DNA of 64,000 nt, from NCBI RefSeq assembly GCF_036669915.1, contig NC_089315.1:888503-952502 (forward strand). The letters run 5' to 3'. Made by a program: the position numbers and the translations under genes. The number at the start of each line of letters is the position of its first letter. The first letter of the stretch is position 1. The DNA is from Pocillopora verrucosa (lineage: Eukaryota > Cnidaria > Anthozoa > Scleractinia > Pocilloporidae). Below the pieces are notes generated by a model that worked only from the letters and a program-made list of their open reading frames with translations, searched no databases and was not told the DNA's origin. Of the stretch, positions 47,073-53,102 are shown in pieces.

Positions 47073-48050
47073 GAGTGTCTCTGTAAGAGCGGTCCGGTCG
47101 ATTTTGCTTGAGACACGGATTTCGCTCGTTTCTCGTGTGTTGTAAGACATTCATGTACCTATACTAAAACCACAATCAGTTTGATCGGATCTCTTTATTT
47201 TTCAGAGTTTTACGGAAATTAAATTTCACTCGAGCGAAGGCTTGTTGTGGCACTTTTTAAGACTTTAATTTCATACAACTTCAGAGGACAATTTACAAAA
47301 AACTACGGAACTCAGCAAAAAACAAATACCATAGCCATGTATATTAACTCTATCTTATCTATCGAGGCGACTTTCGTAAACATCACGTGTCAATCAAAGA
47401 AACAGGAAGACTTGAATGACACCTTATCGGTTCGCCTAAATCAAACACGTCAAAACCGATCAAATTCAAGGTAAATGTTTGAGAAAGTGAGGCGTTCTTA
47501 ACTGATCCAACTAACATAGCTAGGAAGTAGGTGCCATAGAAAAGATAACTACAGAAAAAAACTTTGCGGCCCGACCTTTACGAGAACTTTATAACTCCGT
47601 GAACTTACCTAATTTTCGGCAATCTCCAAGTTTGGCCGCCATTTTGAGGGACTTGTCAACATGAAGCGTAACCGATATAAATAGGGCAGGTTAATCTAAA
47701 ACCGTCAGAAATACATACGAAAGCAATTCAAATGAACTTTTCTTTCAATTCAAGCGGCAAAATTTGAAATTGTTCGTTAAACTTACAATCATCATGCGAC
47801 CATTTCTTTCAACAATTCAAACACTACAACTAGTGTTCGAATTCCCCTCGTCGATTCCACCGCAAGAAATAACCTGTGCCACCCAAGCTTCGGCTCGAAT
47901 ATGAAGTTCGAATCAAATAACATAACTGCTTCATCTTCGCGGCAATATCACGCTGGTATTTTGATTTTCCGATCGACAAGAACGGTGATCAGGAATAGAT
48001 CGGTTTGTTTACCTCGTAAACGTGACCTCTGACCAGCCGCTAAGTGAAAA
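47073..48050 (-). repeat. Left terminal inverted repeat
   Basis: Inverse of 52125-53102. Homology fades on the inner side around 48050-48087. On its minus strand it carries the same TATA-like box (47675-47683), ATG (47642) and splice-donor-like site (47603-47608) as the right arm. Confidence 0.88.
47603..47683 (-). promoter_or_regulatory. Candidate promoter and first exon in left arm
   Basis: On the minus strand a TATATCGG/ATATAAATA-type box is followed about 35 bp later by an ATG (47642, MAAKLGDCRKL) and a GTAAGT donor. It would drive transcription leftward out of the element into unit 2's non-coding block. This is inferred from sequence only. Confidence 0.35.
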
Positions 48051-51025
48051 TAGCATAGCGCTGGGTGGGGTGGTTGGCGGGCTTATCGTCATAAGATATT
48101 CGAATGCATGCTCAAAAAGCTTTAGGACTATCAGTCTAAACAGTGAAGGCATGCTTCGAGGTACAGACAATTTTTGTTTTATTCTCATAACTTTCTCCTT
48201 TAAATTAGAACTGGTATTAATTAATAGAGTTATCAATATATTTTTAACCGGGGCACCCATATAACCTTTTTGCTTGTCATCAGTGGTATAAAATAAAATG
48301 TCTTTTCCACCAGAACCTTTTATTTATGCCCCATTGCACGGAATGAACACTATACTTAGAATGTTTGCTCTAAGTAATTTTTTCTGTTCCCAAGAATGTA
48401 TGCAAAGTGATAGAGATTTGATTCATTCCGCTGACACGTTCTTTAAGTTATGGCGCGTGCAAGTTTTTTCTATCAAAAGTCGCGCGTGCAACACACCGGA
48501 ATTGAAAATTCGTCGTAAAATCGCACGAACCCTAGAATGAGTTTAGGCAACTTTGACTTCTGGCGAGATTAAGAGGATGGTTCAAAGGACCCCTTGAGAT
48601 TTGTTTCAGGACTATAACTGAGAATTGTTAATAACTATGATAATCGTCATCAACGAAAAAACAAAACAGATGAAAAACCCCCATCGACATGTCACTTGTG
48701 CCGTGTTTCCCGTACCTTACTCAGTTTGTTGTTCTCACTGCAATTTTGTTACAGTTGAAATGTTTGCTTTGCGAATGCTGTCGAAAAACTGGCGTTAAAT
48801 GGTGAAACTTTTTATGTTCTCTAAAGAAACTTGTAGTCATTTGTTGTTTTTGTTGTATTTCGGTAACGTGTGAGATTGATACATTTTAGAAACAACCATT
48901 CAACTTTACCTCTTGCAGATATTATCCATGAATACGAACGTTACAGTGACGGACCTGTTTAAATTTGCAAGGGATCCAAACGCAAGGTAACCTTCCACTC
49001 TACATGAATATTTAGGTAAGATTGTTTTTGCTTCTGTCGTGAGCTGAAGACATTCGGATTTTGCTGTCCAACGTTGTGCCACTGAGCTATTGTGAACTGT
49101 GTCGTGAGCAAGGACGTATATTCGGTTTGTAAATGCAATCATCAGCAATGTCGAAACGTTCTTATGCGAGATTAGAATAAGAGAGTTAATGAGCGTGTTA
49201 ATATGCCGGCTTTACTTGTAATATTATCATCAATCATACTTGAACTCTCACAACTGGCCCAAATGCTTTCAGGATGGGTCTCATTCAGGGGTGCTCACAA
49301 TTAGACCGTGCTTTGGCCACCCTTCAGCAGTGTTCCACTTGGGTGGTGTCCTCCGAACTGTAGTGACTGGTGACGAGTATTATCGTTGAGAACACTCAAC
49401 ATTTACAGAGTAAGAAAGTCAAAGCCTGTGCCGGAGAACGGAGACGATATAGAGATCTATTTCAATGTTGAGACCGCCTCTTGTGCTCTGAGAACACAAG
49501 GCTGTAATTTGAGGGAGTTTGAAGTTACTGAAAAGATTTTGTGACATTGTGCTTTTGCAATACCCAATCACAATTTTTTTATAAAACACGATTTTAAGTA
49601 GACAACATGAGTCGTTGCTACAATTTTCAAAACCTAATCTATTTATCTTCTTTACATTATCGTTTTTCCTGTTCGGTCCTTGTTCGGAATGGGAAAACTT
49701 TACTTTGCCAGGGATAAGTATTGACACTCTACTTTAGCGTTTACCTCCATATCAAAAGATATCAACAATAAAAGAAACAACAACAAAAGCAACAGCAACA
49801 GAAACAGCAATGGCAACGTCAACGATGGCAACAACAAGAATGACGACACTGACACCTACAAAGCATACAACTAAAACAAAAGAAGGAGAGAAAGAAATAA
49901 TACTAAAACTGTTTCGTTATAATGATGCACGTGCATGTTGTCAATTGTGGTGGTTCAACATGTTACCTCAGCGTAGATAACGGTTAGCATTTTTGTAAAA
50001 AGATTTGTCTTTGCCGAAACTCCCTTCCTTATAAGTACATATTCCGCTTCAAGTAATTTGATGCAAGTATCGTATTATTTAAAACTCTTTGACCAGCCAA
50101 AGTGGGTATTATACCTTGACGCTGTAATGATGGAAGTGTTGACTTGATCTAAAGCTGTCTGTAGGAAGAAGGTCACAAATATAGTTTCCAAAGATAAGCG
50201 GACGGTGCTTTTTGCCCATTGTTGTCATCATTATCGTTATCACGCCGGAAGAAGTATAAAGCCGGCATGTCGCCTTACCCAGCTACACAGAAAATTGTTC
50301 TCTCTTTTGCTCCCCTTGGATCCTGGAAACTGTTACTATTAAGACGATCAACAAGAAAGCCTTTATAATTATTGAAACTTTTGATTAACAGAATGTAGGA
50401 AAAAATCGGTGGGGAGAGTTTTTCGCGTATCTTATAATCTAAACGATAGTTTTAAATAAAACAAATAACAATTCATTCAATTTACCTTAGTTGTCTCGTG
50501 TTTAAAAGTGGCGTTTCTGGGGACCGTAGATTCTTCTCTGATTCTTCTTGTCTCAGCCAAGACTCACTATCATCAACTTTTTTCTTGTGCTTCTTACGGC
50601 ATGGGACACAGTGAGCTGAGGTAAGCGATTGCAAATTTCTCAGTTAAAGTAAAGCCCAGTAGCATCCATCAGGAATTAAAAACCGACATGCACTGTTTAC
50701 TTTTATTATTCTTAATCAAATAAGGGGTGTTTTAGTCTGCAAGTTTAATCATACCGGTTAATGAGAATCATACAAACTGAGGAAAACTGACCGCAAATAA
50801 TTGTGAACCGTACGCATGAGTAAGTAGATTGCGTTGTCAGGTGATTTGATCTTCTACAAAAACATTATTGATTATCAACCGAGCAACTTTGTACATATTT
50901 CCATCTGTGATGAAAAGCACTTACGTTTTTCAACGTGATGTGTACTTAATACCCTTCATCTAATAAAGAATTTCTTCTCTTTTCGAGCAGATATGTCACG
51001 TGACAAAAATAGATAACACAAAATG

Positions 51026-51820: not shown

Positions 51821-52124
51821 GCAAAGACAAGACACGTTATTTCCGGTGCGATACAAGAGGTTCAATGGTTATCTCGATTATCTAAACACATTTATTTACG
51901 TGGTAAAGATTTGCTTTTAAATCTATGAACTGATGCTAGTCCTATTTGGAACGAAGTGTATTTGAAATAAAAAAGAATACTAAGTAAAACAAAAGTTGTC
52001 TGCAACACGAAGTATGCCTTCGCATTAAGACTGAGAATCCTAATGTTTATCGAATGTTCCCAAAAACCTTCTGATAATCTGCCCGCATCCACCCCTCACC
52101 CCGCCCCTCGCCACTGAACCGTAC

Positions 52125-53102
52125 TGTTTTCACTCAGCAGCTGGTCAGCGGTCACGTTTACGAGGTAAACAAACCGATCGATTCTTGATCACCGTTTTTG
52201 TCGATCGGAAAATCAAAATACCAGCGTGATATTGCCGCGAAGATGAAGCAGTTATGTTATTTGATTCGTACTTCACATTCGAGTCGAAGCTTGGGTGGCA
52301 CAGGTTATTTCTTGCGGTGGAATCGACGAGGGGAATTCAGAAAGTTGTAGTGTTTGTATTGTCGGAATAATGGTCGCATGGGGATGGTAAGTTTAGCAAA
52401 CAATTTCAAATTTTGCCGCTTGAATTGAAAGAAAAGTTCATTTGAATTGCTTTCGTATGTATTTCTGACGGTTTTAGATTAACCTGCCCTATTTATATCG
52501 GTTACGCTTCATGTTGACAAGTCCCTCAAAATGGCGGCCAAACTTGGAGATTGCCGAAAATTAGGTAAGTTCACGGAGTTATAAAGTTCTCGTAAAGGTC
52601 GGGCCGCAAAGTTTTTTTCTGTAGTTATCTTTTCTATGGCACCTACTTCCTAGCTATGTTAGTTGGATCAGTTAAGAACGCCTCACTTTTTCAAAAATTT
52701 ACCTTGAATTTGATCGGTTTTGGCGTGTTTGATTTAGGCGAACCGATAAGGTGTCATTCAAGTCTTCCTATTTCCTTGATTGACACGTGATGTTTACGAA
52801 AGTCGCCTCGATAGATAAGATAGAGTTAATATACATGGCTATGGTATTTGTTTTTTGCTGAGTTCCGTAGTTTTTTGTAAATTGTCCTCTAAAGTTGTAT
52901 GAAATTAAAGTCTTGAAAAGTGTCACAACAAGCCTTCGCTCGAGTGAAATTTAATTTCCGTAAAACTCTGAAAAATAAAGAGATCCGATCAAACTGATTG
53001 TGGTTTTAGTATAGGTACATGAATGTCTTACAACACACGCGAAACGAGCGAAATCCGTGTCTCAAGCAAAATCGACCGGACTGCTCTTACAGAGATACTC
53101 TC
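52125..53102 (+). repeat. Right terminal inverted repeat
   Basis: Inverse of 47073-48050. It ends at the TTAA (53103-53106) some 340 bp upstream of the intact receptor at 53448. Bases 1-383 are another copy of the outer part of this arm. Confidence 0.88.
52490..52570 (+). promoter_or_regulatory. Candidate promoter, first exon and splice donor upstream of GPCR
   Basis: A TATA-like box TATTTATAT (52490-52498) lies about 40 bp before an ATG in good context (CAAAATGGCG, ATG at 52531). An 11-codon segment MAAKLGDCRKL then reaches a consensus AG/GTAAGT donor (52565-52570). A CTTTCTAG acceptor at 53351-53358 lies 90 bp before the receptor ATG. Together these could form a 5'-UTR exon and a 794-bp intron for the receptor at 53448. 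No transcript evidence is available. Confidence 0.4.

Follow-up and report, generated by a model that had tools for sequence, protein, structure and literature searches.

A TTAA-flanked 6-kb insert with long terminal inverted repeats and a paralogous empty site in a receptor gene array of Pocillopora verrucosa

The window, that is, the whole 64,000-nucleotide stretch of Pocillopora verrucosa DNA that was analyzed, is a tandem array made up of unit 1 (384 to ~25197), unit 2 (~25194 to 47072), and the first part of unit 3 (53103 onward), which are collinear with many gaps. The receptor gene at 53337 to 54509 matches the rhodopsin-like receptor family in Pfam (PF00001; 8.1e-31), and the remaining genes of the units, named by similarity, are predicted to be rhodopsin-like receptors as well. 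Among the amplified gene families of corals, the domain found most often is the rhodopsin-like receptor (34 of 192 groups), with tandem duplication an important route of amplification (PMC10236652). Three tandem tRNA-Thr (GGT) genes are located at 1513 to 2174 in a 247-bp repeat of 2.7 copies with 99% matches; in unit 1 this repeat (1516 to 2175) occupies the place of 59 bp of receptor coding sequence in the other two units, breaking the receptor frame. A LINE-like insert at 7757 to 10669, with a 924-amino-acid endonuclease and reverse transcriptase frame on the minus strand (PF00078 and PF14529), splits another receptor gene of unit 1, the counterpart of which in unit 2 is intact. An insert in unit 2 (34253 to 35299) has an ATAG microsatellite at its start and a 174-amino-acid frame with a weak, sub-threshold Pfam match, and may correspond to the 3' end of a LINE, which it resembles.

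Between units 2 and 3 lies an insert of 6,030 bp (47073 to 53102) with inverted arms at both ends and flanking TTAA duplicates. Its parts and the sites related to it are given below.

47073 to 48181, plus strand: left terminal inverted repeat (TIR) of ~1.1 kb, 92.4% identical to the reversed 51985 to 53101 by self-BLAST, starting with GAGTGTCTCTGTAAGAGC
51985 to 53102, minus strand: right TIR of ~1.1 kb, from self-BLAST, its minus-strand start being GAGAGTATCTCTGTAAGAGC
48182 to 51984, no strand: spacer of 3.8 kb without recognized coding sequence, from frames, Pfam, and Rfam
47484 to 47774, no strand: run of 291 bp identical between the arms, from the arm alignment (0.0025 runs of this length expected at a uniform 3.1%)
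47069 to 47072, no strand: left copy of the TTAA target duplication, from the sequence and the single TTAA at the paralogous empty site
53103 to 53106, no strand: right copy of the TTAA target duplication, from the sequence
25194 to 25197, no strand: empty paralogous site with one TTAA and no insert at the boundary of units 1 and 2, from self-BLAST, junction sequence, and unit alignment
1 to 383, minus strand: outer right-arm end of a second copy, clipped by the window edge and followed by TTAA at 384 to 387, from the junction sequence

Using self-BLAST, it was found that 47072 to 48181 pairs with the reverse complement of 51985 to 53101 over 1,125 columns at 92.4% identity. The outer 981 and 983 bases of the two arms align with mismatches at 30 of 976 positions (3.1%) and 12 gap columns. 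When identity was followed along the left arm in steps of 50 bases, 48 to 50 bases matched in each step up to position 700, 40 and 46 in the two steps at 701 to 800, and 47 to 50 at 801 to 950, with decay from ~1.0 kb inward. Smith-Waterman complementarity, scored against 60 single-base shuffles, was clear at 1000 to 1200 (z = 15.1), marginal at 1100 to 1400 (z = 2.4), and at shuffle level farther inward (z of -0.1 at 1200 to 1600, 1.5 at 1400 to 1900, and -0.6 and -0.2 deeper). A preliminary description of the locus had given inverted arms of ~980 bp around a spacer of 4.1 kb; the inverted arms and the unpaired spacer are indeed present, with the arms slightly longer, at ~1.1 kb (self-BLAST and shuffle z), and the spacer reduced to ~3.8 kb. 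The ends are unequal, as the right end is 2 bases longer (GAGAGTATCTC versus GAGTGTCTC), an excess that a slip in GAGAG would explain. Both ends begin with GAG beside the TTAA (GAGTG and GAGAG), giving the element the terminal letters 5'-GA...TC-3'. Folding of the ends yielded z values of -1.85 and -0.93, which are unconvincing as signs of terminal hairpins.

TTAA occurs at only 0.87% of window positions, and thus its presence at both breakpoints is unlikely to be due to chance. At the empty site, homology to the flanks of the insert extends in both directions from a single TTAA, with 24125 to 25198 aligning to 46003 to 47073 on the left (88.45%) and 25194 to 27351 aligning to 53103 to 55286 on the right (87.9%) by self-BLAST; the site is paralogous, not allelic. 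The TTAA at both ends and the single TTAA at the unit 1/unit 2 junction had been described previously and were recovered here, with the flanks aligning at ~88%. The claim that this is a genuine mobile element is likewise upheld by the TTAA-flanked insert with long TIRs, together with an empty site that has homology across it. No independent second copy was seen within the window, as might be expected had the structure arisen by random inverted duplication or as an assembly artifact. Either origin is very improbable, as the 3.1% divergence of the arms, with gradual decay at their inner parts, is not expected of a fold-back artifact, TTAA is present at both breakpoints opposite a clean empty site, and the second right arm also ends at the homologous TTAA.

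A total of 46 stop-to-stop frames of at least 50 amino acids overlap the element. The longest are 104 amino acids, a length that 162 of 300 dinucleotide shuffles of the spacer also attain, and no frame in the spacer goes beyond chance. No Pfam family was matched in the six frames of 48001 to 52202 and of 52000 to 53102 (stops read as X; E up to 10), in a scan that left out 47073 to 48000 as a separate piece, in which HMMER filters drop most matches above an E value of ~0.1, and the reach of which depends on how far Pfam models cover the candidate transposases. No Rfam match was obtained over 47073 to 53102 at E up to 1. With no Pfam match in the scanned frames and frame lengths at chance level, these results agree with the earlier remark that no transposase is recognizable. 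The absence of a transposase is expected of any nonautonomous copy and is therefore no sign of novelty.

To identify relatives, the element was compared with the window by BLAST (E up to 0.01), which returned the element itself, the two arms, positions 1 to 383 (twice, once per arm), and a 43-bp palindrome at 51757 to 51799. A search of the window for the terminus at up to four edits gave six rows with the first pattern, five at the three known ends and one chance match at 44308, while the other two patterns gave mostly noise among the matches listed. A composite of two inserted solo units was rejected, as the arms have no terminus at their inner ends; the best inner terminus match per half on both strands scored 9, compared with a mean of 9.6 and a maximum of 13 across 50 left-half shuffles. 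The spacer was also inspected by eye for small nested TIR elements, which were rejected because neither of the two pairs of exact 12-bp inverted repeats lying within 1.5 kb has a duplicated flank. Ten stretches that differ between units, viewed by eye for sibling insertions (36602 to 39348 is among the gaps left out), lacked TTAA with inverted ends. The terminus and the identical block had no exact match in a viral contig collection, nor did a shorter terminus in prokaryote genome contigs, results that say little about an animal element. No published description of the element was found in the excerpted text of PMC9587614, PMC5199201, PMC2872659, PMC4455052, PMC6004289, PMC10294476, PMC5753468, PMC10236652, and PMC3310237.

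The second right arm at 1 to 383, which is absent from the preliminary description and was found by self-BLAST, stands ahead of unit 1 at the place homologous to the site of the element. Compared with it, the right arm has 7 differences in 382 bases (1.8%) and the left arm has 12 in 380. In the flank adjoining the site, units 1 and 3 differ at 18 of 1,132 bases (1.6%), and per 400 bases their divergence is 1.0 to 2.8% from 2176 to ~5775 and 6.6 to 11.9% thereafter. The step between units 1 and 3 (1 to 5775 and 52719 to ~57900) is sharp, from ~1.6% to ~10%, and marks where a tract of recent conversion or duplication ends. The arm at 1 to 383 is most simply explained by copying of this tract within the array, with the arm inside it. 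On this reading, the arm does not count as a sign of a further jump, and one transposition event is shown.

Divergence is graded across the locus, from 8.5 to 9.5% in the flanks of unit 2 beside the site, compared with the other units, through 3.1% between the arms and 1.8% between the two right arms, to ~1.6% in the copied tract; elsewhere, units 1 and 2 share 77.9 to 90.0% identity over BLAST pieces. Assuming that the two arms were alike when the element inserted, the likely order of events would be the split of the units, insertion of the element, and copying of the tract. Conversion between the arms could make the insertion look younger than it is, upsetting this dating, and such conversion is possible because the 291-base run without differences is longer than a uniform rate predicts. 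The dating also bears on whether the site at 25194 was ever occupied. Precise excision is usual for piggyBac elements (PMC2872659) and would leave a site that looks the same as one never filled, so the boundary of units 1 and 2 could once have held an element that was cleanly lost. We consider such a loss unlikely, as no footprint is visible at the empty site and the arms, at 3.1% divergence, seem to postdate the separation of the units (8.5 to 9.5%), provided that the arms were alike when inserted; conversion between the arms would weaken the latter argument.

Taken as a whole, the element is most likely a nonautonomous cut-and-paste DNA transposon with long TIRs and a TTAA target, a reading that is shared by the alternatives of Sola3 and of a new superfamily, since these differ only in the transposase. 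Sola3 elements target TTAA, may have long TIRs, and have ends beginning with GAG. The target duplications of Mutator elements are 8 to 10 bp. Long TIRs are common to the element and Mutator-like elements, the duplication here being the 4-bp TTAA; the long TIRs of Mutator-like elements are said to hold promoters (PMC3310237). The ends of piggyBac elements carry CC[C/T]T and TIRs of 12 to 19 bp; coral CMITEs have a TTAA duplication, as does the element, and one of them also has a filled and empty pair, in that case of alleles (PMC2872659). However, CMITEs are ~100 bp, whereas the element is 6 kb with GAG ends (GAGTGTCTC and GAGAGTATC) and arms of ~1.1 kb, and it lacks the CC[C/T]T motif. Membership of piggyBac was rejected, in line with the previous statement that the termini do not look like those of that superfamily.

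Kolobok elements generate TTAA duplications, have ends of 5'-RR and YY-3', and are present in cnidarians (PMC9587614). The element has the TTAA duplication, and its 5'-GA...TC-3' ends conform to RR...YY, although agreement over two letters easily arises by chance. The terminal letters together with the TTAA point to Kolobok as the most likely source of the mobilizing transposase, an assignment to which we give about an even chance. The likeness to nonautonomous Kolobok elements such as T2-MITE of Xenopus lies in the TTAA duplication, the RR...YY ends, the existence of nonautonomous relatives, and the occurrence in cnidarians (PMC9587614). In contrast, AG starts every one of the 10 Xenopus Kolobok elements tabulated in PMC6004289, and T2-MITE begins with AGGRR, a motif not found at the GAGTG and GAGAG ends of the element, the arms of which are ~1.1 kb. 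The GAG start, as opposed to AG in Xenopus, counts against Kolobok. Weighing against the transposon reading in general, no transposase, autonomous relative, or independent second insertion was seen in the window. KolobokP composite-like elements share long terminal repeats and RR...YY ends with the element, but their repeats are direct, each with its own TIRs (PMC9587614); they were rejected, as the arms here are inverted, inner termini are missing, and the frames scanned have no transposase or His-Me nuclease match. For family assignment, the Repbase rule is a terminal alignment over positions 1 to 11 with at most one mismatch and the same target site duplication (PMC4455052).

The same nonautonomous transposon may instead have been mobilized by a Sola3 transposase, as the preliminary description proposed, which is possible but somewhat doubtful. 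The TTAA duplication and long TIRs would be common to both, but there is no positive evidence for Sola3, the end motif of which is not given in the excerpts of PMC5199201, PMC4455052, PMC10294476, and PMC5753468. The preliminary description had also suggested an undescribed family, without naming Kolobok, and neither suggestion is demonstrated by the present results. An undescribed TTAA-targeting superfamily with long TIRs, the autonomous copy of which would encode a new transposase, is consistent with the lack of a Pfam match in the frames scanned and with the lack of any such element in titles and abstract openings on TTAA, long-TIR, or cnidarian elements. Nevertheless, a transposase missing from a nonautonomous copy is uninformative, and the target site duplication and end letters already fit a known superfamily through the Kolobok rule; we regard a new superfamily as improbable.

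For the preferred reading, a nonautonomous transposon mobilized in trans, a DDE transposase specific for TTAA and produced from another place in the genome would bind the terminal repeats, excise the element from its donor place, and join it to a TTAA. Later, a tract with at least the outer right arm and ~5.4 kb of the neighboring unit would have been copied within the array. The element is accordingly filed as a nonautonomous TTAA transposon with long TIRs that was probably moved by a Kolobok transposase, and not as a proven member of Kolobok. Its value lies in one clean pair of filled and empty sites for a TTAA element with long TIRs, together with the likely succession of array, insertion, and copying within the array. 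As far as the evidence goes, it is a further passenger transposon, here in a receptor gene array.

Inspection by eye of the 291-bp identical run showed, on the strand of each arm that points outward, a TATA-like box, ATGGCGGCC, and GTAAGT.

~52490 to ~52570, outward strand: promoter-like block, right-arm copy, with the TATA-like box at ~52490, ATGGCGGCC at ~52531, and GTAAGT at ~52565, by eye

A far more elaborate history could be built on this block, in which the element would belong to an undescribed TTAA-targeting family with long TIRs, each arm would consist of a putative outward promoter and first exon kept identical over 291 bp, and the array would then have copied an arm and a receptor gene together; judged from sequence features, this is a long shot. 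If the promoter reading were true, each landing could drive a neighboring gene. The block in the right arm faces the receptor gene 0.9 kb away, the frame of which has an ATG at ~53448.
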